DNA from: Rhizobium sp. 007
GTDB taxonomy: Bacteria; Pseudomonadota; Alphaproteobacteria; Rhizobiales; Rhizobiaceae
DNA length: 64,000 nucleotides
Reading direction: 5' to 3'
Assembly: GCF_015353075.1 (NCBI RefSeq)
Contig: NZ_CP064188.1
Span: 682,001-746,000 of the forward strand
The position numbers were made by a program, and so were the translations under genes. The notes beneath the pieces were generated by a model that had not been told where the DNA came from, searched no databases, and was given only the letters and a program-made list of their open reading frames with translations. Of this stretch, positions 9,382 to 39,741 are shown piece after piece. How positions within the stretch are numbered: the stretch's first letter is position 1; every line of letters starts with the position of its first letter.

Positions 9382-9399
9382 AGATACTATCGAGTATCT
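9382..9399 (-). promoter_or_regulatory. GATAC-N6-GTATC operator 1 (frmA promoter)
   Basis: AGATACTATCGAGTATCT has perfect 7-base arms around ATCG. Read on the minus strand, a TTGCAA hexamer lies 5 bases before the first GATAC and a TATCTA hexamer 17 bases after it, so the second arm overlaps a plausible -10 element of the frmA promoter. The same inverted repeat occurs five more times up to 24442. Confidence 0.8.
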
Positions 9400-9692
9400 G
9401 AAATTGCAAGACGCAGTTTCGAGTTGTGTTCACATGATCTGTCCGGTGGCGCAGGCTGGCGGGCAACAGCGCGGATCACGCTCTAATCGAGAAGAGATCG
9501 GGAGGTCTGAATGTTTGACATGGCCGCAGTGCAGCTGCCGAGCAGCGGGTGGAATAAAATGAAAACATGCGGACTTGCGGTCGGCGCCGCCAAGGACCCA
9601 AAAGAAGCCGGCGATCAATCGCGTGGTTCCGCAGCGGCGGCCAGAGGCCAGCGCCTTGTCGAAGCGCCGAACGCAGCTTAGGAGGACTGGCA

Positions 9693-10049
9693 ATGGAACT
9701 CTTCGTTGAACCGACGTCAATTCTCCGGGTGCTATGTGGCCTTTGGTTCGTTCCCCACTGCATAGGCAAGATGCGCAATATCGGGCCGGCCTCGGCAACA
9801 TTCGCGAAGGCGGGATTCCATCCAGCCGCCGCATTCGTGATCACTACCATCATCGTGGAACTGATTGCCGGCGCAGGACTGGTTCTCAATATCCTTCCGA
9901 GGCTCTCCGCCGGCCTGGCTGTCGTCGTTCTGCTCGGCGCCAGCTATGCCGTCCTGCGGATAAACGGATGGAACTGGCGCTGGCAGAAGCAGGGGCCGGA
10001 ATTCATGATCTTCTGGTCGGTCGCTTGCGTCCTGGCCGTGCTTGATTGA
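9693..10049 (+). CDS. DoxX-family membrane protein
   Basis: The 118-residue protein has four hydrophobic segments and the pattern of DoxX proteins: RVLCGLWFVPHCIGKM in the first helix and FVITTIIVELIAGAGLVLNILPR in the second. ATG 9693 follows a GGAGGA site. Relatives take part in sulfur/quinone chemistry or oxidative-stress complexes, but no specific reaction can be given. The gene lies between the divergent frmA promoter and tetR; the tetR promoter overlaps its end. It may share the operator at 9382, though that site is 293 bases away. Confidence 0.78.
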   Translation: MELFVEPTSILRVLCGLWFVPHCIGKMRNIGPASATFAKAGFHPAAAFVITTIIVELIAGAGLVLNILPRLSAGLAVVVLLGASYAVLRINGWNWRWQKQGPEFMIFWSVACVLAVLD

Positions 10050-10066
10050 CGCTCGAATGTTTTAGA

Positions 10067-10082
10067 GATACTGGGGGGTATC
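10067..10082 (+). promoter_or_regulatory. GATAC-N6-GTATC operator 2 (tetR promoter)
   Basis: GATAC-TGGGGG-GTATC lies 31 bases before the tetR start. A TTGACG hexamer ends 15 bases upstream (10046-10051), so the operator covers the expected -10 region. The same -35-to-operator spacing (15-16 bases) is found at the sites at 11616, 16464 and 24427. Autoregulation by the TetR protein is likely. Confidence 0.8.
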
Positions 10083-10112
10083 CGAGTGCAATAGCAATCA
10101 GGGAGAGCAATC

Positions 10113-10715
10113 TTGGCGCGATTGACACGAGAACAGAGCCAGGCGCGGACGAAAGCAAAGCTGCTGGCGTCGGCGCGCGAGGTCGTCGCCCGCGAAGGCT
10201 ACGAGGGCGCAACCATTGAACGCATTGCAGAGGAAGCGGGCTTCAGCAAAGGGGCCTTCTACTCCAACTTCAATGGCAAGGAAGATATCTTCCTTTATCT
10301 GCTCGAAACGCATGCAGGCGAAGACGTGATCGAGCTGCAGAAACTTCTTGGGCCGATAGAAGACGCGCGAGAGTTGATCGACAGGTTGAGCAACTGGGCG
10401 CAGGAACGCTCCAGCGACCCGAGCTGGGGGATGCTGGCATTGGAGCTCTTTCGCCACGCAAGGCGCAACGCGACCTTCGGAGAGCGTCATTCGAATCTGT
10501 TCCGCGCGCAATGGGAAGGACTCGGCAAGATCCTGCTCCGACTGTTCCCGGAAGGCAAGGCGCCCGCCGGACCGACAGCGCTCGGCGGCATCGTCTTCGA
10601 ACTCACCTATGGCGCTGCCTCGAGCTTCACCAACGGCCCGACGGTTGGCGAGCTTGTGAAAGTCACCCTAATGTCGATGCACGAGGCCTATGGTATCAAA
10701 GCAATGGTGAGCTGA
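10113..10715 (+). CDS. TetR/AcrR-family transcriptional regulator (proposed master repressor of the 8-28 kb regulon)
   Basis: The 200-residue protein has an N-terminal TetR DNA-binding domain: residues 10-60 with ATIERIAEEAGFSKGAFYSNF and the following KEDIF. A helical ligand-binding domain comes after it. The start is TTG 10113 after GGGAGAG. Its promoter carries operator 2, and five more copies of the same inverted repeat sit at operons up to 24.4 kb. No other regulator gene lies in this 20-kb block. I therefore infer that it binds GATAC-N6-GTATC, represses these operons and is released by an aromatic substrate or intermediate. The DNA-site assignment is inference; the family call is firm. 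Confidence 0.88.
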   Translation: MARLTREQSQARTKAKLLASAREVVAREGYEGATIERIAEEAGFSKGAFYSNFNGKEDIFLYLLETHAGEDVIELQKLLGPIEDARELIDRLSNWAQERSSDPSWGMLALELFRHARRNATFGERHSNLFRAQWEGLGKILLRLFPEGKAPAGPTALGGIVFELTYGAASSFTNGPTVGELVKVTLMSMHEAYGIKAMVS

Positions 10716-10901
10716 GCCTCCGCATCAGCATTCAAACACAACCTCTCCGGCCTCGCACGATCTCCGGGAGTGGCGGCGCTGCAATGACGATTCGATTGGT
10801 TGCTTGGGGGCTACGTTTTTCCGGCCGATATAGGATCGTCGGGGCGACGATTTTCGAACAAGCAGAGCCCGCGACACATGTTGGCCGCGGGCGGGTACTG
10901 A

Positions 10902-11318
10902 TCAGCCGCCTGCCTTTCTGCCGAAGGTCGGGCGCACTGCAAGCGCCCCGTCGCCTGCGAGAACAACCGCGGCCAAACCGACGATCCACAGTGCCAAGAA
11001 CTCCCATCCGCCATTCGGGTTGGTGAAGAAGAATCCGGCCGCGGCATGGACTGTGATGATTGCGCCGAGCAACACCGGAATCAGCACTAGCGCTGCCACG
11101 CGGGCAAAGAAGCCTGCGACTAGGGCAAGGCCCCCCAAAGTCTCGAGTGCTATCGTCAGGTATGCGAGGGCAGGGGGCAGGCCGAGGCTTACAAAGAACT
11201 GCGCAGTTCCGGACGGCGTGAAAACGAAAACCTTCAAGCCGGCATGGGCGAGAAAAAGAAGCCCGAGTGTCACCCGCAGCATGAGGATGGCGTAAGGGGC
11301 GGTGCGTGTATCTATCAT
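10902..11318 (-). CDS. DoxX-family membrane protein
   Basis: This 138-residue protein has four predicted membrane helices with the DoxX signature: MLRVTLGLLFLAHAGLKV near the start, then LTIALETLGGLALVAGFFARVAALVLIPVLLGAI and a C-terminal GGWEFLALWIVGLAAVVL. It is a second, longer DoxX protein and is not closely similar to the one at 9693. It is encoded on the minus strand between tetR and the ABC transporter operon. It has no clear operator copy of its own nearer than 11616. Its biochemical role is unknown. Confidence 0.85.
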   Translation of the reverse strand: MIDTRTAPYAILMLRVTLGLLFLAHAGLKVFVFTPSGTAQFFVSLGLPPALAYLTIALETLGGLALVAGFFARVAALVLIPVLLGAIITVHAAAGFFFTNPNGGWEFLALWIVGLAAVVLAGDGALAVRPTFGRKAGG

Positions 11319-11615
11319 TTATGTGTCTCCTGTTGGTCTGGTGGATTGGCGCAGCATCCGTCCGGTCCTGAGCCCGGCAAGGCTTCTGGCGATCTTCGAT
11401 GTTTGCAACGGTGTCGCCGTTGACCGGGAAGGCGAGGGTCTCGCTCGGACCGGCGACCGGCCGGCGTACAAATGATCGCTCTTCCATTTGGTCCCCCAAC
11501 CGCTCGCCCCGGGTTTGCAGATGCCCGGAGCACCCGCCAACGGCCGCCTCACATCACTGCATCCGACGGTTTTCATTACACTTCAAACTGTGCATTGACA
11601 TACCAGCCGGACTTC

Positions 11616-11633
11616 AGATACTTTATGGTATCT
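11616..11633 (+). promoter_or_regulatory. GATAC-N6-GTATC operator 3 (ABC importer operon promoter)
   Basis: AGATAC-TTTATG-GTATCT has perfect 6-base arms. TTGACA at 11595-11600 and ATACTT at 11618-11623, 17 bases apart, form a good sigma-70-type promoter whose -10 lies inside the operator. The transporter operon starts at 11714. Confidence 0.82.
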
Positions 11634-11713
11634 TGAGGATTGTCAAGCGGCGCCACTGAGGAGATACGGCGCGGGCAACTCGGGAGTGAGTGAACAGCCC
11701 CAGGGAGGATAGG

Positions 11714-12511
11714 ATGGCTGTGGATCTGCAAGCTACCGGCAGCGGCTGCCCCGTGCTTTCCGTCGAAAATATCGACGTTCGCTTTGGCGGCATACACGCG
11801 CTTAAGGGCGTCTCGCTCAGCGTGAATGCAGGCGAGATATGCGGGCTGATTGGCCCGAACGGCGCCGGAAAAACGACGCTGTTCAACTCCATTACCCGGC
11901 TCAGCGCGGTGACTGCCGGTTCCGTTCGCCTCTGCGGTCGAACGATTGAAGCCGTGCCCGCGCGCCAGATCATCCGTCTGGGTATAGCGCGCACGTTTCA
12001 GAACCTCGGCATCTACGGCGGAATGACGGTTCTGGAAAACGTCATGCTCGGCGCTCACCATTTGATGGGCGGTCGCATTGTCGAAGCGATGCTTCGACCC
12101 GGGCGCGCCCATCACAGGGAAAGCGAGACCAGACAGCGTTGCCGGGCGATCCTTGATGAACTAAACCTCTCCGGCGTTGCCGACAAGGCGGCGGGCTCGC
12201 TGCCCTACGCGACCCAAAAGCGCATGGAGATCGCCCGAGCGCTTGCCTCGTGTCCCACCGTACTCCTCCTCGACGAGCCGGCGGGCGGCCTTACCCACGG
12301 CGAGGTCGCCGAATTCGGTGAGCTCGTATCGCGCGTCCGCGACGATCATGGCGTCACGGTCATCCTGATCGAGCATCATATGGGGCTGGTCATGACCCTC
12401 TGCGACCGTATCGAGGTTTTCCATCTCGGTCGCAATTTGGCGAGCGGCACGCCCGCGCAGGTGAAGGCCAATCCGGCGGTCATCGATGCCTATCTGGGGA
12501 GGACACAATGA
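11714..12511 (+). CDS. Branched-chain/aromatic acid ABC transporter, ATP-binding protein (LivG type)
   Basis: This 265-residue ATPase of the HAAT (Liv) importer family has Walker A GPNGAGKTT near residue 51, a LivG-style signature (SLPYATQKRMEIARAL near residue 162) and Walker B VLLLDEPAGGL near residue 186, followed by the switch histidine in IEHHMG. ATG 11714 follows AGGGAGGAT and was preferred to an upstream start at 11690. It opens a five-gene operon with LivF, LivH, LivM and a binding protein. The operon is preceded by operator 3, which ties uptake to the P450 region. The likely cargo is an aromatic or carboxylic acid (inference). Confidence 0.92.
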   Translation: MAVDLQATGSGCPVLSVENIDVRFGGIHALKGVSLSVNAGEICGLIGPNGAGKTTLFNSITRLSAVTAGSVRLCGRTIEAVPARQIIRLGIARTFQNLGIYGGMTVLENVMLGAHHLMGGRIVEAMLRPGRAHHRESETRQRCRAILDELNLSGVADKAAGSLPYATQKRMEIARALASCPTVLLLDEPAGGLTHGEVAEFGELVSRVRDDHGVTVILIEHHMGLVMTLCDRIEVFHLGRNLASGTPAQVKANPAVIDAYLGRTQ

Positions 12512-13218
12512 CGATGCTGCAGGTGAAGGGGCTATCTGCCGGATATGGCGCAGCCGATGTTCTGCATGGCATCGACTTTTCCGTCGAGCAAGGCACCATC
12601 GTGGCGCTACTTGGATCGAACGGCGCCGGAAAGACGACGATCCTCAGAGCGCTGTCCGGGCTCATATCGGCGCGGGGGACGATCGATTTTTGCGGCGCGA
12701 ATCTTAACCGCTGCAATGCGGCACAAAGGGTGGCGCTTGGTCTTGCGCACATACCGCAGGGCCGCGGAACCTTCGGTGACTTCACCGTCGAAGAGAACCT
12801 TGCGGCTGGCGCGTACACGATCGGCGACAGGCAGCAGATCGCTGCCGACATGCAGCGGTGGTACTCGGCCTTTCCAAGGCTCGCTGAACGCCGGCGGCAG
12901 CAGGCCGGTAGCCTCAGCGGCGGCGAGCAGCAGATGCTGGCAATTGCCCGGGCTCTCATGTCGCGCCCGAAGCTCCTGATGTGCGACGAGCCTTCGCTCG
13001 GCCTTGCGCCAGCGATTACCGAAGAAATCTTCGAGATATTCAAGTCACTCAATCGGGAGCACGGCATGACACTTCTCATCGTCGAGCAGAACGCCGACCT
13101 CACCCTCCAATTCGCGGACATGGCTCACGTCCTAGAGTCCGGATCCTTCACGGTGAGCGGAGCGGCGCGGGATCTTTTGGGCAACGAAGCCGTCCAGCAA
13201 TCCTATCTGGGGGTGTAA
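12508..13218 (+). CDS. ABC transporter ATP-binding protein (LivF type)
   Basis: The 236-residue second ATPase of the importer has Walker A GSNGAGKTT, a canonical LSGGEQQMLAIARAL signature and Walker B LLMCDEPSLGLAP. It overlaps the LivG gene by 4 bases (ATGA), which indicates translational coupling. LivF/LivG heterodimers power HAAT importers. Nothing unusual is seen. Confidence 0.93.
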   Translation: MTMLQVKGLSAGYGAADVLHGIDFSVEQGTIVALLGSNGAGKTTILRALSGLISARGTIDFCGANLNRCNAAQRVALGLAHIPQGRGTFGDFTVEENLAAGAYTIGDRQQIAADMQRWYSAFPRLAERRRQQAGSLSGGEQQMLAIARALMSRPKLLMCDEPSLGLAPAITEEIFEIFKSLNREHGMTLLIVEQNADLTLQFADMAHVLESGSFTVSGAARDLLGNEAVQQSYLGV

Positions 13219-13219
13219 G

Positions 13220-14101
13220 ATGGAATTGTTCTTCCAACTTGTTGTCGATGGCCTGGCTTCCGGCGCTATCTACGCTTCGCTGGCGCTGGCACTGGTTCTG
13301 ATCTTTCGAGCAACGCGGATCGTCAATTTCGGTCAGGGCGAGATGGCCACCTTCTCCGCCTACTGTGCTTGGCAGCTCTGCGAATGGGGCATGCCGATGT
13401 TGCTTTCCTTTCTTGTCGTCGGTGCCTTGGCGTTTTTGCTCGGCATCGGCGTTTTCCGTTTCGTCATCAGGCCGGTTTCCAGGGCTCCGGTCGAAGCTGC
13501 CGTCGTCGTGACCCTCGGGCTCTTCGTCGTCTTCCAGGCGCTGTCCTTGTGGCTCTGGGGCTCCGATCAGCGCGCCTTTCCTTCGATGTTCCCGAATGTC
13601 GGCTGGGATCTCCTTGGCGTGCGCGTGACGACCAGCGCGGTCGGCATCGTTGCCGCTCTGCTCTGTCTCGCCGTGGCCGCGGGGGCGATCTTTCGGTTCA
13701 CAAGGCTTGGCCTTGGCATGCGAGCTTCCGCCTATGACGGCGAGAAGAGCCTTCTCGTCGGCATCCCGGTCGAGCGAATGCTGATGCTCGGCTGGGGTCT
13801 TGCGGCGCTGATTGGGTTCGTCGCGGCCTTGCTGGTCGGGCCACGGTTGTTCCTGAGCCCGACGATGATGATGCCGATCCTGCTCTACGCCTTGGCGTCG
13901 GCCACCCTTGGCGGCTGGGATAGTCCGCTCGGGGCTATGATCGGCGGCCTGATCGTCGGCGTCGCCGAAAGCCTTGGCGCAACATTCCTGCCCTTCATCG
14001 GTGCGGACCTGCGCGTGGTGATCCCAATCATCGTCACTCTCGTGGTCCTGCTCGTTCGGCCGGTCGGTCTTTTTGGTACTCGCACGGTGATCAAGCTATG
14101 A
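13220..14101 (+). CDS. ABC transporter permease (LivH type)
   Basis: This is a 293-residue integral membrane protein with about eight hydrophobic segments. The family-typical N-terminus is GLASGAIYASLALALVLIFRATRIVNFGQGEMA, containing the conserved N-F-(G/A)-Q-G-E. It follows the LivF stop by one base. It forms the membrane channel with the LivM-type permease encoded next. Confidence 0.92.
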   Translation: MELFFQLVVDGLASGAIYASLALALVLIFRATRIVNFGQGEMATFSAYCAWQLCEWGMPMLLSFLVVGALAFLLGIGVFRFVIRPVSRAPVEAAVVVTLGLFVVFQALSLWLWGSDQRAFPSMFPNVGWDLLGVRVTTSAVGIVAALLCLAVAAGAIFRFTRLGLGMRASAYDGEKSLLVGIPVERMLMLGWGLAALIGFVAALLVGPRLFLSPTMMMPILLYALASATLGGWDSPLGAMIGGLIVGVAESLGATFLPFIGADLRVVIPIIVTLVVLLVRPVGLFGTRTVIKL

Positions 14102-15108
14102 ACATGCTACGTCTTCGATTTGCCCCCGCGGCTCTTGGCTCGATTGCTGCGCTCAGTCTGCCTCTCGTCGTTCCGAACTTCCTGCTGTTCGAATTCAGCA
14201 TCGCCGTCTCATATGGAATTGCGATTCTCGGCTTGAATCTTCTCCTCGGCTTCACGGGACAGATCTGCCTGGCCCAAGGTGCGCTGTTCGGGGTGGGGGC
14301 CTACACGACTGCCATTCTCAATGTCAGCTTCGGCTGGGATCCCTTAGCGACACTGCCATTTGCGGCCATCGTCGCTGGCCTGATTGGCGTCGTCGTCGGG
14401 CTCCCTGGCTTGAGGCTGCAAGGGCTGCAGCTCGCAATCATCACCTTCGGTGTCGCGTCGGCATTTCCGCAGCTCCTGTTGAAAATGGACACGCTCACCG
14501 GCGGCGTCACCGGGCTTGCGACAGATCAGCCGATGGCGCCGATATGGTTCCCGGGAAGCCAGGAGATTTGGCTTTACGGGTTGTCGCTGATCTGTGCTGC
14601 CATTTCAATCATCGTGGTCACCCGGCTCCTCCGCGGCGATACCGGTCGCATGTTGCGCGCCCTGCGTGACAATCCGGTGATCGCCGAGGCACTGGGCGTC
14701 AACCTGACGATGGGCCGACTGGCAGCCTTTGCCGTGAGTTCCGCGCTCGCGGGTCTCGGCGGAGGGCTCTTTTGCGTCCTGAATGGCTTCATCAGCCCGC
14801 AGTCTTTCCTGCCGATGAAATCGATCGACATCCTGATAGGCGGTATCGTCGGCGGGATCATCAGCATTCCCGGTGCCTTCATCGGGGCCATCTTCGTCGT
14901 CTTCGTGCCGGGCTTCACGACCGACATCAATCCTGCGCTCGGTGGGCTGATCTACGGCCTCTGCCTGATCGCCATGATGATGGTCGCGCGCCGCGGCATC
15001 GCCGGGTTCCGGGTCGAGGAGCTCAAGAAGGCAGTCTTGCGCATATTCAAGTTCAAGGTTCTGTCGCGGATTCCGGGGCCTGTTCCCGGTCAATTGGGAG
15101 GAGAATGA
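14098..15108 (+). CDS. ABC transporter permease (LivM type)
   Basis: The 336-residue permease has the LivM motifs NLLLGFTGQICLAQGALFGVGAYT near residue 45 and GRMLRALRDNPVIAEALGVN (the EAA-like cytoplasmic loop) near residue 183. It overlaps livH by 4 bases. Together they form the transmembrane pore of the HAAT importer. Confidence 0.92.
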   Translation: MNMLRLRFAPAALGSIAALSLPLVVPNFLLFEFSIAVSYGIAILGLNLLLGFTGQICLAQGALFGVGAYTTAILNVSFGWDPLATLPFAAIVAGLIGVVVGLPGLRLQGLQLAIITFGVASAFPQLLLKMDTLTGGVTGLATDQPMAPIWFPGSQEIWLYGLSLICAAISIIVVTRLLRGDTGRMLRALRDNPVIAEALGVNLTMGRLAAFAVSSALAGLGGGLFCVLNGFISPQSFLPMKSIDILIGGIVGGIISIPGAFIGAIFVVFVPGFTTDINPALGGLIYGLCLIAMMMVARRGIAGFRVEELKKAVLRIFKFKVLSRIPGPVPGQLGGE

Positions 15109-15109
15109 A

Positions 15110-16351
15110 ATGCCGAGACGCGTACTACGAGGAGTTTCCATGATGCTGGGGGCGCTCGCCTTCACGGGGCTTATAGCCGCAACGCCGAGGGCGCAGGAGA
15201 CTGCATCACCAGGCATCACGGATGATGCGGTGAGGATTGGCATCTCAGGTCCGCTGACCGGCCCTGTCGCTGCGATCGGGGCGATTGCCGAAGGGATCAA
15301 GACAAAGGTCGATGCGATCAATGCAGCGGGCGGCGTCAAGATGGGTGATGACAAGACGCGAAAGATCGAACTGATCGTGGAGGATGACGGACTTGATCCG
15401 CAACGCACGCTCACCAACGTACGCAAGCTCGTCGAGCGCGAGGAGGTGTTCGCCGTCCTGGCAACTGCGGGAACGCCGAACAACCAGGCGATCGGCCGGT
15501 ATGTGACGCAACGCGAGGTGCCGAATCTCTTCATGTATTCGGGCGTCCACGAGCTCGCCGGGCCCGAGTGGGAGATCGGGCTTGTTCCGTCCTTCACCAC
15601 GGAAGCTGCGGCATTCGCGCGCTATCTGCTGGACACCAAGCCCGAAGCGAAGATCGCCCTTCTCTATCTGAACACCGAGACGGGGCAAACCTTCCAGAAG
15701 GCACTGGAGGATGCAGTGAGCACGTCCAACATCAAGATCATCGCCTCCCAGCCCGTAACATCGGCCGACCCAACCGTCGAAACCCAGCTTTCGACGCTGA
15801 AGGCGTCGGGTGCTGATACGTTGGTTGTGATCACAGGTCCGAAGCAGGGCGCCGAAGCGGTGCGCTTCGCCACGGAAAGCGGCTGGAAGCCAACGACGCT
15901 CGTGTCGAACATCGCGGCCTCCGTCGCTTCACTGAAACCGGCGGGCCTCGAAAATGCGAAAGGCGTGATCACGAGCCAGTACCTGAAGCAGGTGAATGCA
16001 GCGGCGCCCGGCGAGGACGCGGGCGTGAAGCGTTACATTGCCGACCATGAAGCCGCGAGGGCCAGCTTCGCCATCGATGATGCGCTCGGTCAGGTCGGAT
16101 ATGCGACCGGCGAGGCGCTCGTGAAGGTACTCGAATCGATGAAGGACCCGACCCGTGCGGCGATGATGGAGACCGCTCGAAATCTCGGGGGCGTTCAATT
16201 GGATCTTCTTTTGCCCGGCATCACACTGAACACGAAAAGCGGGGAGGACGTCTATCCGATCGAGTCGCTGCAGCTCTTCCAGTTCGACGGTGCGGCCTAC
16301 CAGCCCGTCGGTTCGATGATCTCTTTTGAAGGAAAGACGCCGTCGCATTGA
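15110..16351 (+). CDS. ABC transporter periplasmic substrate-binding protein (HAAT family)
   Basis: The 413-residue protein begins with a signal peptide (basic MPRRVLRG, a hydrophobic core LGALAFTGLIAAT, cleavage probably near PRAQE). The mature part is a Peripla_BP_6 domain starting VRIGISGPLTGPVAAIG. Binding proteins of this type in catabolic regions often bind aromatic acids rather than leucine. It ends the importer operon and is followed by a strong rho-independent terminator at 16374-16397, so the operon stops here. Confidence 0.92.
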   Translation: MPRRVLRGVSMMLGALAFTGLIAATPRAQETASPGITDDAVRIGISGPLTGPVAAIGAIAEGIKTKVDAINAAGGVKMGDDKTRKIELIVEDDGLDPQRTLTNVRKLVEREEVFAVLATAGTPNNQAIGRYVTQREVPNLFMYSGVHELAGPEWEIGLVPSFTTEAAAFARYLLDTKPEAKIALLYLNTETGQTFQKALEDAVSTSNIKIIASQPVTSADPTVETQLSTLKASGADTLVVITGPKQGAEAVRFATESGWKPTTLVSNIAASVASLKPAGLENAKGVITSQYLKQVNAAAPGEDAGVKRYIADHEAARASFAIDDALGQVGYATGEALVKVLESMKDPTRAAMMETARNLGGVQLDLLLPGITLNTKSGEDVYPIESLQLFQFDGAAYQPVGSMISFEGKTPSH

Positions 16352-16373
16352 CTGTGACCGACAGCTTTGCCGA

Positions 16374-16397
16374 GGGGCGCTCAGGCGCCCCTTTTTT
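16374..16397 (+). terminator. Rho-independent terminator of the ABC importer operon
   Basis: A perfect 7-base stem GGGGCGC / GCGCCCC with loop TCAG is followed by six T residues. It lies 22 bases after the binding-protein stop codon. Confidence 0.92.
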
Positions 16398-16463
16398 CTG
16401 CCTTGCTCGCAGAACCAGGTTCAGCGGCGTGCAGATTTAGTATTGACATTCTAATAGGAATTT

Positions 16464-16481
16464 GGATACTAACGGGTATCC
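16464..16481 (+). promoter_or_regulatory. GATAC-N6-GTATC operator 4 (aldolase-ferredoxin-transhydrogenase operon promoter)
   Basis: GGATAC-TAACGG-GTATCC has perfect 6-base arms. TTGACA at 16443-16448 and ATACTA at 16466-16471 (17-base spacing) form the promoter, with the -10 inside the operator as at 11616. It precedes the seven-gene operon 16551-22407. Confidence 0.82.
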
Positions 16482-16550
16482 TAAGACGGCGAAGACCAAG
16501 GCAGCAAGGCTTGTGGGTGTCGCCGGGAAGGGCCGCCGCGGGAGGGCGTC

Positions 16551-17225
16551 ATGGCGAAGGTGATGCGAAATATAAAACGAACGGATGACGCGGTTGTCCG
16601 TGGGCTGGGCGCGCTCGGTGTCGCAACCGTGCACGAAGCGCAAGACAGGCGAGGTCTTCTAGCGCCTCATCTGCGGCCGATCTACCGGCCCGCCCGTATC
16701 GCAGGCAACGCGCTCACTTGCGAGGTGGCTCCGGGCGACAACTGGATGATCCACGTAGCGCTGGGTGAGGCGCGCCCGGGAGATATTCTTGTCGTCACAC
16801 CGACATCGCCCTGCGACGACGGTTATTTCGGCGATCTCCTGGCGACGTCCGCCAAGGCGATCGGCATCCGCGGCCTCATCATCGATGCCGGCGTTCGTGA
16901 CATTGCCACGCTTACGGAGGTGCAATTCCCGGTCTGGTCGAAAGCCATCTCAGCGCAGGGAACCGTGAAGGAGACCCTGGCCAATGTCCAGGTGCCGATC
17001 GTCTGTGCCGGCTGTCTGGTCAACCCGGGGGATGTCATTGTCGCCGACGACGACGGTGTTTGTGTCGTTCCGGGCGAGAACGCAGCGATGGTGCTCGAGA
17101 AGGGGCGTGCGCGGGAGCGGATGGAGGAGGAGAAGCGGTTGCGGTATGCGGCGGGCGAACTCAGTCTCGACGTGAACGACATGCGCCCGAAACTCGTGCA
17201 GAAGGGCCTTGTCTATGTCGACTGA
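16551..17225 (+). CDS. ligK: 4-carboxy-4-hydroxy-2-oxoadipate / HMG aldolase (LigK/ProA, RraA-like family)
   Basis: The 224-residue protein has the RraA fold with the class II pyruvate-aldolase residues. [24 protein letters not shown] contains the Arg-Asp pair and the metal-side glycine-rich loop, and [24 protein letters not shown] and [10 protein letters not shown] match what I remember of LigK/ProA enzymes closely along the whole length. These metal-dependent enzymes cleave 4-carboxy-4-hydroxy-2-oxoadipate to pyruvate and oxaloacetate (and 4-hydroxy-4-methyl-2-oxoglutarate to two pyruvates), the last step of the protocatechuate 4,5-cleavage and gallate pathways. It opens the operon under operator 4. 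The matching hydratase (LigJ type) is encoded at 25763. This makes the aldolase reading far more likely than an RNase E regulator. Confidence 0.85.
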
Positions 17226-17772
17226 GAGCAAATCAGCCTTGCCGCGGCGGGTCGTGACGGGCATCCGAAATGGCCGATCCGTCTTCATCAGCGATGGCCT
17301 CGTGCCAAATGCGCATCTGCATGAATCGATCCCGGGTTTCATGACGTCGGTCTGCTGGGCAACGCAGGCACGCCCAAAGTTGCAGCTGAATGGTTCGGAG
17401 CCCGCCTTGCCCGGGATCCGCATTACCCCTTCGGTCGGCGAGACACGCCTGATGATCGTTCGCTTTCCACCGGACTCGGTGATGGCGGATCCGTCCTTCG
17501 ACCCGGAAGCGGCGGATGCGGAGCAGCGCCTGCATCTGCCGGGGCTGGCAGAACTCTTCGAGCACGAAAATCCGGGTATGCACATGACGGACTCGATCGA
17601 CTACGACATCGTGCTTAAGGGCGAGATCTGGCTTGAGCTCGATGATGGGGCGGAGGTGCATCTCCGCCAGGGCGACGTCGCGATCCAGTGCGGCACGCGC
17701 CATGCCTGGCGAAACAGGGGATCGTCGCCGGCCACGATGGCCTTCGTTCTGATCGGAGCGGCGCGCTCCTGA
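17215..17772 (+). CDS. Cupin-domain protein
   Basis: The 185-residue soluble protein has a C-terminal cupin barrel: [23 protein letters not shown], then [20 protein letters not shown], giving possible metal ligands H, E and H. The N-terminal half is a variable domain. ATG 17215 overlaps the aldolase stop by 11 bases; a TTG six bases upstream is less likely. Cupins of this type are found in many aromatic-degradation operons and could be isomerases, oxygenases or binding proteins. No reaction can be assigned here. Confidence 0.8.
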
Positions 17773-17845
17773 GCGCCGTTCAGGCGCGCGGAAGATTCAT
17801 CCGGGAAACATGCCTTTGCAATTCACGCGGCCGGAGGAGGGCGCG

Positions 17846-19057
17846 ATGCATTACGATTGCCTCATCATCGGAAGCGGACACGGCGGAGCCCAGGCGGCGA
17901 CTTCGCTCCGTCAGCACGATTTTCAAGGATCGATCGGAGTCCTCAGCGAGGACCCCGATGCGCCTTATGAACGTCCGCCCTTGTCCAAGGACTATCTCCT
18001 TGGCAGCAAGACTTTCGATCGCATTCTCATCCGGCCGACGGACTTCTGGGCGTCGCGCAATATCGACCTCTTGCTCGGCAACAAAGTCGTCAGGGTTGAC
18101 GCAAGCGAAAGGCAGGTCCTTTGCGCGAACGGCGCAACGGTCAGCTATGGTCATCTTGTCTGGTCCGCGGGAGGACGCCCGCGCCGCATGTCCTGCCCCG
18201 GCCATGATCTTCAGGGCATCCACGCGGTCCGGACCCGGTCGGACGTGGATCGACTCAACGAAGACCTCGTCAAAGCAGAAAAGGTGGTGATCGTTGGCGG
18301 CGGTTACATCGGGCTCGAGGCCGCGGCGGCGCTTTCCAACCTTGGAAAAACGGTGACTGTGGTCGAAGCGATGAACAGGGTGCTTGCCCGCGTCGCGGCA
18401 GAACCGCTCTCCCGCTTCTACGAGAGGGAGCATCGCGACCACGGGGTCGATGTTCGACTGGAAACCGGCGTCGAGAGCTTCATTGGAAGCGACGGGCACC
18501 TGACTGGCGTGATGTTGCAGGATGGCGCGACGCTTCCCGCGGATATCGCAATCGTCGGCATCGGAATCGTGCCCTGTGTCGAGCCGTTGATTGAGGCCGG
18601 AGCGGCGGGAAATGACGGTGTCGATGTCGACGAGTTTTGCCGGACCAATCTCCCGCAGGTCTTTGCCATCGGGGACTGCGCCCGGATCAGGAGCGCGCAC
18701 GGTCTGCGGATCGAGTCCGTGCAGAACGCTCATGATCAAGCCACTGCCGTGGCAAAGACGCTTTGCGGTGAGCTGACGTCCTACAGCGCAACGCCCTGGT
18801 TCTGGTCGAACCAATATGACCTTCGCCTGCAGACGGTCGGCCTTTCCGCAGGCTTCGATGACACCGTCGTCAGAGGCGATCCCAACAGCCGCAGCTTCAG
18901 CGTCGTCTATCTCCGTGATGGCACGGTGATCGCCTTGGACTGCATCAATTGCGTCAGGGACTATGTCGAAGGCCGGATGCTCGTCGAAAGGCGCACGCGC
19001 ATCGACGTGCAAGTCCTGGCAGACACCAGCATCAGGTTGAAATCTTTGATTGTGTGA
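17846..19057 (+). CDS. NAD(P)H:ferredoxin oxidoreductase (putidaredoxin-reductase type)
   Basis: This 403-residue FAD enzyme of the rubredoxin/putidaredoxin reductase group has an FAD-binding CLIIGSGHGGAQAA at the N-terminus, PYERPPLSKDYL, an NAD(P)-binding VVIVGGGYIGLEAAAAL near residue 150 and the FAD-binding FAIGDCARI near 273. It passes electrons from NAD(P)H to the [2Fe-2S] ferredoxin encoded next, and through it to the P450 at 24573 (inference from context). ATG 17846 follows GGAGGAGGG; an upstream start at 17810 has no support. Confidence 0.9.
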   Translation: MHYDCLIIGSGHGGAQAATSLRQHDFQGSIGVLSEDPDAPYERPPLSKDYLLGSKTFDRILIRPTDFWASRNIDLLLGNKVVRVDASERQVLCANGATVSYGHLVWSAGGRPRRMSCPGHDLQGIHAVRTRSDVDRLNEDLVKAEKVVIVGGGYIGLEAAAALSNLGKTVTVVEAMNRVLARVAAEPLSRFYEREHRDHGVDVRLETGVESFIGSDGHLTGVMLQDGATLPADIAIVGIGIVPCVEPLIEAGAAGNDGVDVDEFCRTNLPQVFAIGDCARIRSAHGLRIESVQNAHDQATAVAKTLCGELTSYSATPWFWSNQYDLRLQTVGLSAGFDDTVVRGDPNSRSFSVVYLRDGTVIALDCINCVRDYVEGRMLVERRTRIDVQVLADTSIRLKSLIV

Positions 19058-19084
19058 GTGCGCAGAAGGAATGGGAGGGTGAAA

Positions 19085-19402
19085 ATGTCGAATTTTACGG
19101 TGATCTCACGAATCGGGGAGGTCTTCTCCGTCGAAGGGCGAGCGGGCATCTCGGTGATGGAAAATATTCGCGATGCGGGAGTGGACGAATTGCTGGCGCT
19201 CTGCGGCGGCTGCTGTTCTTGCGCCACTTGCCACGTCTATGTCGACGACGCCTTTCATGAGCATCTACCGGCGCTCACCATCGACGAAGATGATCTGCTC
19301 GACGGTTCGGATCATCGGCGGCCGCAATCCCGGCTCTCTTGCCAGATCCGCTTCACCCCGGAGCTTCAGGGGATGATCGTTACGCTGGCACCGGAAGACT
19401 GA
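19085..19402 (+). CDS. [2Fe-2S] ferredoxin (adrenodoxin/putidaredoxin type)
   Basis: The 105-residue ferredoxin has the cluster ligands of vertebrate-type ferredoxins, C-x5-C-x2-C ([10 protein letters not shown] near residues 40-49) and a fourth cysteine in SRLSCQI. Two extra cysteines in the loop (CGGCCSC, usual form CGGSCAC) are unusual. ATG 19085 follows GGGAGGG. It is placed directly after the reductase gene and is the likely electron donor of the class I P450 system. Confidence 0.92.
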
Positions 19403-19450
19403 TCGCAGGCGTATCTCTCAAACCAGAGGCCCAGAACCGGCCGGAGGAAC

Positions 19451-20614
19451 GTGGCATTGGATGTGAGTGTGTACATAGCAAGGGAAAGTAGGTCCGACGA
19501 AGGGCGCGTTGCGGCGTCTGCCGAAACTGTAAAGAAGATGGGGAACCTCGGCTTCGACATCGTGGTCGAGGCAGGTGCTGGGGTTTTATCGCGCATACCG
19601 GACAGCGAATTCGAGGCTGCAGGGGCGCGGATCGGCTCGGCTGGCGATGCGGCAACCGCGGATGTGGTGCTGAAAGTGCGCCGCCCGACGGAGGCGGAGA
19701 TTGCCGGCTACAAGAGCGGCGCGGTCGTCATCGCGATCATGGATCCCTATGGAAACGATGAGGCGATTGCCGCGATGGCGAAGGCAGGGCTTTCAGCCTT
19801 CGCGATGGAACTGATGCCGCGCATTACGCGCGCCCAGTCCATGGATGTTCTTTCCTCACAGGCAAATCTCGCCGGCTATCAGGCCGTCATTGAAGCGGCG
19901 TCTGTCTATGATCGCGCCCTGCCGATGATGATGACGGCCGCCGGCACCGTTCCGGCCGCCAAGGTCTTCGTGATGGGTGCAGGTGTGGCAGGCCTCCAGG
20001 CGATTGCGACGGCGCGCCGCCTCGGCGCTGCGGTCTCGGCCACCGACGTTCGCCCCGCCGCCAAGGAACAGGTCGCCTCACTCGGCGCCAAGTTCATCGC
20101 CGTTGAAGACGAGGAGTTCAAGGCAGCCGAGACGGCGGGCGGCTACGCCAAGGAAATGTCCAAGGAATACCAGGCGAAGCAGGCAGCCCTCGTTGCCGAG
20201 CACATCGCCAAGCAGGACATCGTCATCACCACGGCACTGATCCCCGGACGCCCTGCGCCGAAGCTCGTATCGCGCCAGATGCTGGCTTCGATGAAGCCCG
20301 GCGCCGTTGCCGTCGATCTTGCGGTCGAGCGTGGCGGCAATATCGAGGGCGTGGTTGCAGACGAGGTCGTCGATGTCGAAGACGTCAAGGTGATCGGTTT
20401 CGCCAACCTGCCGGGCCGGGTGGCCGCCAGCGCTTCGGCGCTCTATGCCAAGAACCTCGTCACCTTCCTCGAGACCATGCTCAACAAGGAGACGAAGAGC
20501 GTCGTCCTCAACCTCGACGACGAACTCATCAAAGCGACCATGCTGACCTATGCAGGCGATGTCGTGCATCCGGCATTCGCCGGGACGAAGAAGGGGATAG
20601 CTGATGGCCAGTGA
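19451..20614 (+). CDS. pntAA: Proton-translocating NAD(P) transhydrogenase, subunit alpha part 1
   Basis: This is the 387-residue NAD(H)-binding domain I. It begins [21 protein letters not shown] and has the Rossmann motif [20 protein letters not shown] near residue 175 and the mobile-loop region before it. The start is GTG 19451 with CGGAGGAAC at ideal spacing. The three-gene arrangement pntAA-pntAB-pntB is normal for Alphaproteobacteria. What is unusual is its place as part of a ferredoxin/P450-type operon: the gap to the ferredoxin gene is 48 bases, with no terminator seen. Confidence 0.93.
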
Positions 20615-21002
20615 AGCAATGGACAAGGCGCTGGAGCAGCTTGACCAGGCGGTCAACGCAGTCGTGGCGGCGGCCGCGCAGGCACCGGAAGCGGCAAGTG
20701 CGGCAACGGGCGGGGCGATCGATCCCTTCATTTTCCAGTTCGCGATCTTCGTGCTGGCGATCTTCGTCGGTTATTACGTCGTCTGGTCGGTGACGCCGGC
20801 GCTGCATACGCCGCTGATGGCCGTCACCAACGCCATCTCTTCAGTCATCGTCGTCGGCGCGCTGCTTGCAGTGGGCATTTCGGCAAGCGGGCTTGCGACC
20901 GGTTTCGGCTTCGTCGCGCTCGTTCTCGTCTCGGTCAACATCTTCGGCGGTTTCCTCGTCACGCAGCGCATGCTGGCGATGTACCGCAAGAAGGACAAGT
21001 GA
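20604..21002 (+). CDS. pntAB: NAD(P) transhydrogenase subunit alpha part 2 (membrane)
   Basis: The 132-residue membrane part of the alpha subunit has an N-terminal soluble stretch followed by three hydrophobic helices ([20 protein letters not shown], then [20 protein letters not shown], then [19 protein letters not shown]). It overlaps pntAA by 11 bases. With PntB it forms the proton channel. Confidence 0.93.
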
Positions 21003-21012
21003 GGCCGGACGA

Positions 21013-22407
21013 ATGACCAATATCGCAGCTTTCCTCTACCTCGTCTCCGGCGTGCTTTTCATCCTGGCACTGCGCGGCCTCTCCCATCCGGCCACCAGCC
21101 GCAAGGGCAATCTCTACGGCATGATCGGCATGGGGATGGCGATCCTCACGACGCTGGTGCTGGCAACGCCTTCTTTTGCCGGCTTCGTGCTGATCGTGCT
21201 CGGACTGGCGATCGGCGGCGGGGCGGGCGCCTATATCGCCCGCGTCATCCCGATGACCTCGATGCCGCAGCTGGTGGCGGGCTTCCACTCGTTGGTCGGC
21301 CTGGCCGCCGTGCTGGTTGCCGCCTCCGCGCTTTATACACCGGCCTCCTTCGGCATCGGCGATATCGGCTCGATCCATGGCGAGGCGCGTATCGAGATGG
21401 CGATCGGCGCCGCGATCGGGGCGCTTACCTTTACCGGCTCGATCATCGCTTTTTTGAAGCTTGACGGGCGCATGTCCGGCAAGCCGATCCTGCTTGCCTT
21501 CCGGCATATCATCAACATCGCGCTTTTGGTGCTGATCGTCTTCTTCATCATCGGGCTCGCGGCAACCGAAAGCCATTTCGATTTCTGGGCGGTCGTGGCG
21601 CTTTCGCTGGCGCTCGGCGTGCTGCTGATCGTGCCGATCGGGGGCGCCGACATGCCGGTCGTCGTCTCCATGCTGAACTCCTATTCGGGGTGGGCGGCAG
21701 CCGGTATCGGTTTCACGCTCGGCAATCTCGCTCTGATCATCACCGGTGCGCTGGTCGGCTCTTCGGGTGCGATCCTGTCCTACATCATGTGCAAGGGCAT
21801 GAACCGCTCGTTCATATCCGTCATTCTCGGCGGCTTCGGTGGCGAGACCTCTGCAGGGGCTGCGGACAATTCCGACAAGACCGTCAAGCTCGGCTCGGCA
21901 GAGGATGCCGCCTATCTGATGGCGAACGCTTCCAAGGTCATTATCGTGCCGGGCTACGGCATGGCGGTTGCCCAGGCGCAGCACGCGCTTCGCGAGCTGG
22001 CCGACAATCTCAAGAAGGCCGGCGTCGAGGTCAAATACGCAATTCATCCGGTCGCCGGCCGCATGCCCGGCCACATGAACGTGCTGCTGGCCGAAGCGAA
22101 CGTGCCTTATGACGAGGTCTTCGAACTCGAAGACATCAACTCCGACTTCGGCCAAGCCGATGTCGCTTATGTCATCGGTGCCAACGACGTCACCAATCCA
22201 GCGGCGCGCGATGACAAGACCTCGCCGATCTACGGCATGCCGATCCTCGATGTCGACAAGGCCAAGACCTGCCTCTTCGTCAAGCGTTCGCTCGGCTCCG
22301 GCTATGCGGGCATCGACAATACGCTGTTCTACAAGGATGGCACGATGATGCTGCTCGGCGATGCAAAGAAGGTCACCGAGGAGATCAACAAAGCGATCGG
22401 CCACTGA
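21013..22407 (+). CDS. pntB: NAD(P) transhydrogenase subunit beta
   Basis: The 464-residue beta subunit has about nine N-terminal membrane helices followed by the NADP-binding domain III, with VPGYGMAVAQAQHALREL near residue 314, HPVAGRMPGHMNVLLAEA and GANDVTNPAARDD. ATG 21013 lies ten bases after the pntAB stop; an open frame extends further upstream but overlaps pntAB in another frame. The enzyme uses the proton gradient to drive hydride transfer from NADH to NADP, giving NADPH. It ends the operon. Confidence 0.95.
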   Translation: MTNIAAFLYLVSGVLFILALRGLSHPATSRKGNLYGMIGMGMAILTTLVLATPSFAGFVLIVLGLAIGGGAGAYIARVIPMTSMPQLVAGFHSLVGLAAVLVAASALYTPASFGIGDIGSIHGEARIEMAIGAAIGALTFTGSIIAFLKLDGRMSGKPILLAFRHIINIALLVLIVFFIIGLAATESHFDFWAVVALSLALGVLLIVPIGGADMPVVVSMLNSYSGWAAAGIGFTLGNLALIITGALVGSSGAILSYIMCKGMNRSFISVILGGFGGETSAGAADNSDKTVKLGSAEDAAYLMANASKVIIVPGYGMAVAQAQHALRELADNLKKAGVEVKYAIHPVAGRMPGHMNVLLAEANVPYDEVFELEDINSDFGQADVAYVIGANDVTNPAARDDKTSPIYGMPILDVDKAKTCLFVKRSLGSGYAGIDNTLFYKDGTMMLLGDAKKVTEEINKAIGH

Positions 22408-23205
22408 GCAGGATAAACAGCATCGTTTGCTGCCGGCCGGGATCCCTCGTCCGGTATTTTTTGCCCATCGACGCGCCTCACCTGTTGCCGGCACGTCTGG
22501 AGCGCCGACAACTGCCCAAAAGCCGTGGGAAGCGACAGTCTAGGTCTTTGGCCCAAGCTTCAGCGACGCGGCCGGGAGATGGATGTCGGCCCAACGGTTC
22601 ATATCAGATGGGGTCAACCGCACGCGACCACACTCGCATCTGCCGTGGCTGTTGGGACCAGATGAAAATGCCAATTCCTATTCGGGGTCCGTTGGCGATC
22701 CCGTTCCGCGTCTGCGGCATCACGTAGAATAAGATGAAGCCGAACATCTACACGATCTGCAGACGTGCCTTCCGTCGCATCAAGAAGCAGCGGCATACTT
22801 CCGGCACGGCAACTGTTCGCCGACATCAGGGGCTACCCTCATCTGCCCGAACGGACGAAACCCGGCCGTTCTGAGCGACATCGTTAGCGTCTTCGGCGCA
22901 TGCCTGAACACAGGCGGCCGATAGGGATGTGTGTCGATTGTAATCAGAATTTGAGCGCAGGCTGCCATTCTTTTCCGGCAGTTAAGCGGCCTATGTGTGC
23001 CGCTTCCCGAATGGAAGGACATCCATGAATTAGGCCACCTGCTGAGGGTACAGAGTATCGGGCCGAATAAACGTTTGCCATCAAGAGCCGCGTTCGGCTT
23101 TGCCAGACTGTTGAGAACATCGCCTGGCGGGATAACAGAAGACGCCTTCCACCCGGACGGGGCGGAGGGCGTCTTCCTCTCCAGTGAGCCGCTGCGGCTC
23201 TCGAT
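22408..23205. other. 798-base stretch without a convincing gene
   Basis: Between pntB and the convergent zinc dehydrogenase gene, no frame on either strand shows a recognisable family, a good start site or stable coding character. A 45-codon frame at 22735-22872 and frames around 22945-23080 were considered and look random. The region may contain decayed DNA. A strong hairpin at 23138-23176 closes it. Confidence 0.6.
23138..23176 (-). terminator. Hairpin downstream of the zinc dehydrogenase gene
   Basis: GAAGACGCC (23138-23146) pairs with GGCGTCTTC (23168-23176); a GC-rich interior extends the stem. It begins 30 bases after the dehydrogenase stop on the minus strand. No clear T-run follows, so termination strength is uncertain. 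Confidence 0.5.
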
Positions 23206-24315
23206 CTAGATAGTGACGGCGTAGTAGGTGAAGCCGCCATCGCCTGAGGCAACGCCGGAAATCGCTTCATTGATGCTCTCGAGCGGCCAAACCATCGGCT
23301 TCATGACGGAGATGTCGACAACTTCGTTTTCGACCATGGAGGCGATTTCCATACCTTCAGCGGCGGTGAACCATACCGAGCCGATCAACTCCATCTGCTC
23401 ATCCATCCACCACTTTACGTCGAGGGGCAAATTACCCGCAGTACCGCCGATATTGACGATGCGGCCGCCTCTGCGCACACCCTTCATGGCATCGAGCATG
23501 GATTCGAGCGGCGCCTTGGCGCCGAGCGTGTCGAGCATCAGGTCGGCACCGACGCCGCCCGTTCTGGCCTTGATGAAATCGCCGCTCGAGCCGGTCCGGT
23601 TCGAGAAGATTTCAATCCTGTCCGGCGCAAGCGCCTTCAGGCGGGCCAGCAATTCGTCGCCACGGGCGACTGCATAGATCTTGCCGACGCCCATGGCCAG
23701 CGCGAAAAGAGTCGCGCCGATGCCGAGGGTTCCGCTAGCGCCGTTGATAATCAGCTTGCGCCCCATCAGCGGCCCGCACTTTTTCAGGGCGGCGTAGGAC
23801 GTACCGAGGTAGCCCATGCGCGACCCCTGGACGAAGGACATGTTGTCGGGAATTTTCACGACCTGCGCCTGCGGCGCCAGCATATATTCACAAAAGCCGC
23901 CATAGGGGTAGCGTTTGAACATCTCAAGGCTGTTCGGATTGTAGCCGAAATAACCGCCGAGTGTCCAATGCTGGCAGGCTTGCGGGTGTCCCGATGAACA
24001 TGCGTGGCAGGCTCCGCAGAAGCGGCCGGGATTGACATAGACCCGGTCGCCCGGCTTGAGCGACACGACCTGCTCGCCGACCTGATGGACGATACCTGAA
24101 GGATCGAGGCCATGGATTGCGGGGCGGGGCGGTAATGGCATCTGCGGATACCAGCTCTCCCAGTTCGCAAGGACATTGGCGAGATTCGGGACCATTCCGC
24201 AGGCCTTGACCTCGACAACGACGTCGGTTCCGGTGGCCACGGGGCTCGCCACCAGATCCATTCTCATCGGTTCTCCGACGGCGTGCAGCCGCGCTGCGCG
24301 CATCATCTGCGTCAT
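23206..24315 (-). CDS. Zinc-binding alcohol dehydrogenase family protein (MDR superfamily)
   Basis: This is a 369-residue medium-chain dehydrogenase with a structural-zinc lobe C-x2-C-x2-C-x7-C (CGACHACSSGHPQAC, near residues 99-113) and a coenzyme-binding NGASGTLGIGATLFA. The catalytic GHE motif of typical ADHs reads IHGLDPSGIV here, and the first ligand cysteine lies in KACGMVPN, so the active-site zinc shell is atypical. It probably oxidises an alcohol or reduces an aldehyde or enone in the same pathway as the divergent P450. Its promoter carries operator 5, and a good site (GGGAGGAATTTT) precedes ATG 24315. Confidence 0.87.
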   Translation of the reverse strand: MTQMMRAARLHAVGEPMRMDLVASPVATGTDVVVEVKACGMVPNLANVLANWESWYPQMPLPPRPAIHGLDPSGIVHQVGEQVVSLKPGDRVYVNPGRFCGACHACSSGHPQACQHWTLGGYFGYNPNSLEMFKRYPYGGFCEYMLAPQAQVVKIPDNMSFVQGSRMGYLGTSYAALKKCGPLMGRKLIINGASGTLGIGATLFALAMGVGKIYAVARGDELLARLKALAPDRIEIFSNRTGSSGDFIKARTGGVGADLMLDTLGAKAPLESMLDAMKGVRRGGRIVNIGGTAGNLPLDVKWWMDEQMELIGSVWFTAAEGMEIASMVENEVVDISVMKPMVWPLESINEAISGVASGDGGFTYYAVTI

Positions 24316-24361
24316 TAAAATTCCTCCCTAATGAATGTCACCAGATACTGGAAAGTTTTCA

Positions 24362-24377
24362 AATACCAAACAGTATT
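24362..24377 (-). promoter_or_regulatory. GATAC-N6-GTATC-type operator 5 (zinc dehydrogenase promoter)
   Basis: AATAC-CAAACA-GTATT is a one-base variant of the core with perfect 5-base arms. On the minus strand TTGCGC lies 5 bases before it and TATTTG 17 bases after TTGCGC, the same geometry as at 9382. A further partial site (GATAC-TGGAAA-GTTTT) lies at 24344-24359. Confidence 0.65.
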
Positions 24378-24426
24378 CAAAAGCGCAAGCGCCTGCAGCT
24401 CATCATTGACACCATGGTCGCATTCA

Positions 24427-24442
24427 GATACTAACTGGTATC
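24427..24442 (+). promoter_or_regulatory. GATAC-N6-GTATC operator 6 (P450 operon promoter)
   Basis: GATAC-TAACTG-GTATC has perfect 5-base arms. TTGACA at 24406-24411 ends 15 bases before it, so the -10 element lies within the operator. The P450 gene starts at 24573. Confidence 0.8.
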
Positions 24443-24572
24443 GGAAATCTATGTGGTATGCGTAAAAGAGTGCCTGAGCTCCACGCCGAGCTCAAATGAC
24501 GGTGAAAGCCGGTCTGGACGAAGGATGCCGGATTTGCGCCGGTCGTCCGACGATTTTCGTGGGAGGAAGAAA

Positions 24573-38477: not shown

Positions 38478-38549
38478 GCTGATTCTCCATGAGGGCGCTC
38501 GCTGAGGTCACCTAATGAAACTCCGCGGCGATCAAGTCAATGAAATATT

Positions 38550-38566
38550 CTGCATACAGCATGCAG
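38550..38566. promoter_or_regulatory. Inverted repeat, candidate GntR operator
   Basis: CTGCAT-ACAGC-ATGCAG has perfect 6-base arms and lies between the divergent GntR gene and the PdxA2-like gene, 67 bases upstream of the latter. Confidence 0.5.
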
Positions 38567-38632
38567 TACTCTTGATATTGAATGCCAAACCGGTGTATCT
38601 GCTTCTTCGAGGAGAAACATGTGGAGAGGTTC

Positions 38633-39670: not shown

Positions 39671-39741
39671 CTTCAGAAATCTGCAGGATCGCCCGGCACG
39701 GAGGAGGGTTCGTGCCGGATGAGTTCAAAGGAGGAGTAACG

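Follow-up and report, generated by a model that had tools for sequence, protein, structure and literature searches.

A putative local TetR regulon marked by a shared operator in Rhizobium sp. 007

A single gene for a TetR-family regulator stands among catabolic genes in a 64-kb stretch of the genome of Rhizobium sp. 007 (hereafter the window; G000:C2:682001-746000, on a contig of 2.28 Mb in a whole genome of 7.6 Mb), and six copies of one inverted repeat lie at promoters around it. Does this regulator, encoded at 10113, act on all six promoters, and what would such a regulon do? Comparison of the sites within the genome and among relatives supports, as far as sequence goes, a local regulon of TetR type whose operator code is unusually clear. 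It is highly probable that the TetR protein is the local repressor of the promoters of frmA, tetR itself, an ABC (ATP-binding cassette) importer operon, the ligK operon, adh and the P450-ligJ operon, acting through this operator; such confidence covers the regulator, the operator and repression, and the inducer is proposed separately and more tentatively.

Palindromic sites and their distribution in the genome

The core ATAC-N6-GTAT occurs six times in the window, exactly at the six sites listed in the initial annotation, each with the 6-base centre described there. The sequence said to be shared by all of them, GATAC-N6-GTATC, is present at five; the remaining site (24362-24377) reads AATAC-N6-GTATT, a perfect inverted repeat, yet with two mismatches to that consensus. 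The putative frmA operator (9383..9398, minus strand; GATACTATCGAGTATC on the plus strand) has TTGCAA 5 bases upstream and lies 60 bases from the frmA ATG at 9322, and tetR's own (10067..10082, plus strand; GATACTGGGGGGTATC) has TTGACG 15 bases upstream and lies 30 bases before the TTG start. Those of the LIV-type ABC importer operon (11617..11632, plus strand; GATACTTTATGGTATC) and of the ligK-cupin-ferredoxin reductase-ferredoxin-transhydrogenase operon (16465..16480, plus strand; GATACTAACGGGTATC) both have TTGACA 16 bases upstream. The operator assigned to the zinc alcohol dehydrogenase gene adh (24362..24377, minus strand; AATACCAAACAGTATT on the plus strand) has TTGCGC 5 bases upstream, and that of the P450-ligJ operon (24427..24442, plus strand; GATACTAACTGGTATC) has TTGACA 15 bases upstream.

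Four of these promoters carry a second, weaker copy 18 bases from the first. At the ABC promoter it lies upstream of 11617 and overlaps the -35 TTGACA (11599..11614, plus strand; CATACCAGCCGGACTT), its left arm being kept in relatives; at the ligK promoter it lies upstream of 16465 and again overlaps the -35 TTGACA (16447..16462, plus strand; CATTCTAATAGGAATT), with ATTC-N6-GAAT also present in aligned relatives. The partner at the P450 promoter is downstream of 24427 (24445..24460, plus strand; AAATCTATGTGGTATG; right arm GGTATG kept in relatives), and a weaker second adh operator, missing from the initial annotation, lies 18 bases from 24362 (24344..24359, minus strand; GATACTGGAAAGTTTT on the plus strand).

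Could these be chance or structural repeats that no regulator reads? Short palindromes are common: a scan with at most one mismatch is uninformative (106 places in the genome against 55 for a control), and about half of the genomes of the genus (79 of 148, its own included) contain isolated exact copies. Allowing two mismatches likewise gives weak evidence (22 places in the window against 13.3 expected, a number reached by 2 of 100 shuffles). In 300 dinucleotide shuffles of 9382-24442, however, the exact GATAC-N6-GTATC, observed five times, did not appear in any, and ATAC-N6-GTAT, observed six times, had a mean of 0.027 and a maximum of 1. The whole genome contains nine exact places of the 10-base motif, five of them in the cluster (the reversed control pattern has one), and at the rate outside the cluster (four in the rest of the genome) the Poisson probability of five exact sites in 15 kb is about 3e-13. 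Instead of being scattered through the genome, the exact sites are concentrated at these promoters, an outcome that the initial annotation had named as support for its reading. Chance repeats were rejected on the shuffles and the genome-wide clustering, are contradicted by the conservation described below, and are given practically no weight here.

An extended 24-base motif, TTNRRATACYNNNNRGTATYYNAA, was written after inspecting relatives; with at most two mismatches its only matches in the 7.6 Mb are the six cluster sites (control: one), a result that describes specificity and is no independent test, the motif having been derived from a site set containing the window's own six. GATACYNNNNRGTATC has seven places in this genome and 0 to 4 in each of the other 147 genomes of the genus, 78 of which have one or more. 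None of the four exact places outside the cluster is recovered by the 24-base motif with two mismatches; they were examined by a listing of open reading frames only and are treated as background, not as tested non-members (one of them, C2:1666607, falls within overlapping open frames).

The regulator and the conservation of its putative site

The presumed repressor is a TetR-family protein of 200 residues (10113..10715, plus strand) that matches PF00440 with 53.3 bits (cut-off 24). Its predicted fold is all-helical (AlphaFold2, mean pLDDT 90.6), and nearly all of the 50 rows listed by Foldseek are TetR-family regulators, FadR, Rv0078, EthR2 and RolR included (TM-score 0.47-0.73 by query length, 15-24% identity). 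With general TetR-family local repressors it shares the TetR_N helix-turn-helix, this predicted fold, palindromes over the core promoter and a site before its own gene; it differs in that the part outside TetR_N matches no Pfam family at E 1e-4 and no NCBIfam model passes its cut-off. The best NCBIfam match is to the ScbR/CprB-type gamma-butyrolactone receptors (NF041196), and CprB is among the PDB sequence matches, but the score of 50.7 bits is far below the family cut-off of 150. CprB operators have ATAC-like half sites that are spaced more widely; the operator of PhlF, the phloroglucinol repressor of Pseudomonas, has GATAC arms and a wider centre. The recognition region KGA-x-YSNF (x is F or V) is identical in all 13 homologues of alignment A1, whose rows came from a plasmid tblastn and a search of the genus. 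Its invariance in the 32-sequence alignment A2 is partly by construction, the same word having served as a search pattern, and we therefore relied on A1. No second regulator gene was seen among the scanned proteins of the 8-28 kb region (not every open reading frame there was scanned), which agrees with the earlier description of this tetR as the only regulator gene in the region.

TetR homologues are 90-93% identical on Sinorhizobium plasmids (the orthologue of Sinorhizobium fredii NGR234 is 93% identical) and 57-60% identical in Rhizobium and one Agrobacterium, and 18 of 148 genomes of the genus (its own included) have one at E 1e-30. The protein is 87-96% identical to copies in Sinorhizobium, Ensifer and Phyllobacterium versus 41-61% to those of its own genus, a pattern suggesting that the cluster was acquired horizontally. 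Searching the species genomes of GTDB yielded, among the best 80 loci (which are not a census), TetR proteins of 33-96% identity that by record title belong to alpha-, beta- and gammaproteobacteria, Acidobacteria and Actinobacteria; the repressor-site pair appears to recur in distant bacteria.

The order of the cluster genes varies among these relatives. For example, the P450 operon of Rhizobium anhuiense is divergent from the ABC importer, tetR follows doxX, and doxX is divergent from adh. The sites travel with the promoters of the same genes after such rearrangements. Operon heads were defined as cluster genes without another cluster gene just upstream on the same strand, and for each of the 185 heads in 41 loci the 300 bases upstream were searched. 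An exact ATAC-N6-GTAT is present in 142 of these regions, and allowing one mismatch raises the number to 147; divergent promoters share sites (99 distinct exact sites) and the loci are related, so these counts are not independent events. The eleven other orders of the half-site letters reach at most 6 exact and at most 47 within one mismatch at the same heads, and among 3,328 palindromes (256 x 13) the next one that is not an extension of the same site reaches 24 of 185.

Does the site follow the TetR? The upstream regions of 92 tetR homologues were reduced to 40 groups without alignable upstream DNA, and in an unguided palindrome count ATAC-N6-GTAT came first of the 3,328 types (16 of 40 groups; 16 of 28 without Actinobacteria). 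Accepting exact arms inside, or one mismatch in ten, a site is found within 450 bases before tetR in 28 of 80 genome loci and in 23 of the 48 where TetR identity is below 50%. In 17 loci (L137-L153, TetR below 50%) there is no cluster gene around tetR except a 30% livG in one, and in Paraburkholderia terrae tandem sites stand at efflux genes. LigJ orthologues in TetR genomes have the exact core within 1.5 kb on either side in 15 of 15 cases, versus 1 of 14 for control LigJ paralogues (55-62% identity, all on contigs without a TetR match), where the single core lies inside the matched coding stretch. All 16 genomes of the genus with LigJ at 78% or more (its own included) are within the 18 TetR genomes, the extra two being G112 and G128. 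In two actinobacterial loci the core stands at promoters of the cluster: L131 has it between p450 and livG, and L132 in front of ligJ. The concentration in the genome, the conservation after rearrangement and the tracking of TetR homologues, unrelated neighbourhoods included, support the earlier reading of the sites as targets of this TetR, and we infer that it binds them.

Another regulator, encoded elsewhere in the genome, might instead own the palindrome, the neighbouring TetR being incidental. That the GATAC core is private to this TetR had to be rejected: GATACTGCATGGTATC in a Rhizobium genome adjoins a different TetR. GATACTNNNTGGTATC occurs in 10 of 20 further loci, each taken around an exact copy in another genome of the genus, and in the one locus whose neighbours were read (L068:3663-3678) 56 bases separate the start of the site from that of a different TetR gene. 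Nevertheless, the site accompanies homologues of the window's TetR across differing gene neighbourhoods, 13 of the 14 LigJ paralogue loci are without it, the genome has no close TetR paralogue (next match 38% over 106 residues), and one site lies directly before tetR itself. We consider an outside regulator very improbable and regard the local TetR as the probable reader of the sites.

Promoter register and the 18-base tandem

Within 40 bases of 140 exact sites in the 41 loci there are 119 TTGAC hexamers, and for 97 of them the 16-mer follows after a gap of 15 or 16 bases; the first arm therefore sits as the -10 element. A TTGC hexamer stands 5 bases before the site in all aligned sequences of frmA (8 of 8) and adh (6 of 6, the window included in both), a register that would place the operator between -35 and -10; both registers fit positions for a repressor. 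The spacings that the initial annotation had noted, 15-16 bases after TTGACA/G and 5 bases after TTGC, are thus both present and conserved in relatives.

The 41 loci contain 300 sites with at most one mismatch in eight; 54 pairs of these lie exactly 18 bases apart, and any other distance from 7 to 60 gives at most two pairs; across 98 loci there are 87 pairs at 18 bases, 82 of them distinct (a few contigs are duplicated). A 32-base tandem pattern with at most two mismatches finds four places in this genome (control: one): the promoters of the ABC importer, the ligK operon, adh and the P450 operon. At the first two of these, the weaker copy overlaps TTGACA and the -10 lies under the stronger one; at the other two it is the downstream copy that is weaker.

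In the mechanism that we propose, a TetR dimer would bind an extended palindrome (approximately TTCRGATACY-N4-RGTATCYGAA) and cover the -10 element. The weaker site exactly 18 bases away at the ABC, ligK, adh and P450 promoters would leave room for a second dimer, which at the first two would also overlap the -35 TTGACA, and TetR would control its own gene as well. We read the tandem as two TetR dimers lying side by side and infer that they may bind cooperatively; a strict 18-base tandem in promoter register would be a clean case for how two TetR dimers share one promoter.

It is also conceivable that TetR, bound to these sites, serves chiefly to activate transcription, or that it depends on another catabolic regulator in order to act. 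Some TetR-family proteins do activate, and the TTGC -35 elements at frmA and adh are weak. A normally spaced TTGACA, with sites lying over the -10 and in two cases over the -35 as well, fits steric repression instead, and the scanned proteins mentioned above include no other regulator. Either role is improbable in our judgement, and repression remains the preferred role of TetR.

Several observations, in addition to the derivation of the 24-base motif and the core next to a different TetR, weigh against a regulon defined by this operator. No site within one mismatch is found at 38 of the 185 operon heads: the four scored heads of Microvirga (L120) all belong here, as do doxX heads, the second copies of adh in Mesorhizobium and a number of heads of frmA, ligK and sbp. 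The window itself has seven heads, of which five show the exact core and the two doxX heads do not. The 20-kb piece that holds tetR in Rhizobium G112 (TetR 57%) has no site. Most of the 14 actinobacterial loci scanned lack an N6 site near tetR, L129 and L133 have cluster genes and no N6 site, and in four of the 14 (L168, L171, L177 and L162) ATAC-N5-GTAT, one base shorter, lies just before tetR. Finally, the tandem partner in this genome is within one mismatch only at adh, the other three having two in eight.

Cluster genes and the probable pathway

The genes behind these promoters can be assigned largely by matches to profiles and to sequences of solved structures. On the minus strand, frmA (8210..9322) encodes S-(hydroxymethyl)glutathione dehydrogenase (TIGR02818, 621 bits, cut-off 544). 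A DoxX-family membrane protein (9693..10049, plus strand; PF07681) precedes tetR, and the five genes of the LIV-type ABC importer (11714..16351, plus strand) follow it. The next operon, also on the plus strand, starts with a LigK-type 4-carboxy-4-hydroxy-2-oxoadipate aldolase (16551..17225; TIGR02798, 330.9 bits, cut-off 304.5; 3noj, 4.7e-83) and a cupin protein (17215..17772; PF07883), and continues with an FAD ferredoxin reductase and a 2Fe-2S ferredoxin (17810..19402), which are the probable redox partners of the P450, and the NAD(P) transhydrogenase PntAA-PntAB-PntB (19451..22407). The zinc-dependent alcohol dehydrogenase (23206..24315, minus strand) is followed on the plus strand by a cytochrome P450 of the GcoA aromatic O-demethylase type (24573..25763; 8u09, 3.6e-88; GcoA 5ncb, 1e-72, over residues 49-435 of a 436-residue open reading frame), a LigJ-type 4-oxalomesaconate hydratase (25763..26788; 6dwv, 7.6e-143, over residues 5-343) and an NMT1/THI5-like protein of periplasmic-binding fold (26820..27731). 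The last protein begins MAITVRLAGG, with no signal peptide evident by eye, lies downstream of P450-ligJ with no permease of its own adjoining, and may be a cytoplasmic enzyme.

Taken together, the regulon looks like one for O-demethylation of a methoxylated aromatic acid, removal of formaldehyde and breakdown of 4-oxalomesaconate through LigJ and LigK. The P450 is closest to GcoA-type structures; GcoA works with a fused reductase, GcoB, whereas the likely partners here are the separate 2Fe-2S ferredoxin and FAD reductase. The LigJ and LigK homologues are shared with the protocatechuate 4,5-cleavage/gallate pathway, from which the cluster differs in that a search confined to the LigB family of dioxygenases found none in this genome (PF02900, 0 matches at E 0.001; of 14 control genomes, 4 do match). 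We propose that TetR is probably released by a methoxylated aromatic acid of the syringate/3-O-methylgallate class or by an intermediate in the degradation of such an acid; its release would turn on uptake by the ABC importer, O-demethylation by the P450, ferredoxin and reductase, formaldehyde removal by FrmA and breakdown of the ring fragment by LigJ and LigK. The repressor-operator pair might serve as a sensor of lignin-derived aromatic acids.

The regulator and the sites may be as proposed and the substrate another aromatic compound, a reading that is compatible with the regulon and that we hold to be a sizeable minority possibility. Besides the missing LigB-type enzyme, it is favoured by the cupin and the binding-fold protein, which have no assigned function, by the fact that P450 homology by itself does not fix a substrate, and by the scores of the DesA/LigM-like proteins of Agrobacterium, 502 and 444 bits where the NCBIfam cut-offs are 800 and 580. 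On the other hand, the GcoA-type P450 occurs together with formaldehyde dehydrogenase, LigJ and LigK, and, of 39 genome loci tested (L098-L136), 11 have DesA/LigM-like O-demethylase genes near TetR, which are 38-96% identical to the Agrobacterium copy (L032) and in two cases have an operator in front. Both points argue for a substrate of the syringate/3-O-methylgallate class.

The cupin is present in a single copy in the genome, its nearest structures are 3es1 (function unknown) and fungal StrC, and it accompanies LigJ/LigK and TetR in many loci, Actinobacteria included. As a guess, it could open the ring and is a candidate for the missing ring-processing step. A bolder proposal, which we consider unlikely, is that the operators mark out a complete pathway for methoxylated gallates that has so far gone unrecognised: no LigB-type dioxygenase would be needed to open the ring, and the cupin, possibly with the cytoplasmic binding-fold protein, would feed 4-oxalomesaconate to LigJ and LigK; an old TetR-operator pair, with its 18-base double-dimer geometry locked to the -35 and -10 elements, would then have carried the regulon through the Proteobacteria into the Actinobacteria.

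On the main reading, one highly specific operator code would show which genes belong to a widespread regulon, probably for methoxy-aromatic catabolism, and it also flags genes without an assigned role (the cupin, the binding-fold protein, DoxX and, in relatives, YceI neighbours). A pair formed by a hypothetical protein and a YceI-family gene, which was not found in the window or in 20 kb on either side, is preceded in relatives by tandem sites (L028:38196 and 38323-39775; L114:10800; L122:9938). S-formylglutathione hydrolase is encoded inside the cluster in S. alkalisoli, and an 84% identical gene of Rhizobium sp. 007 lies on another contig (G000:C1:1686267-1687097).

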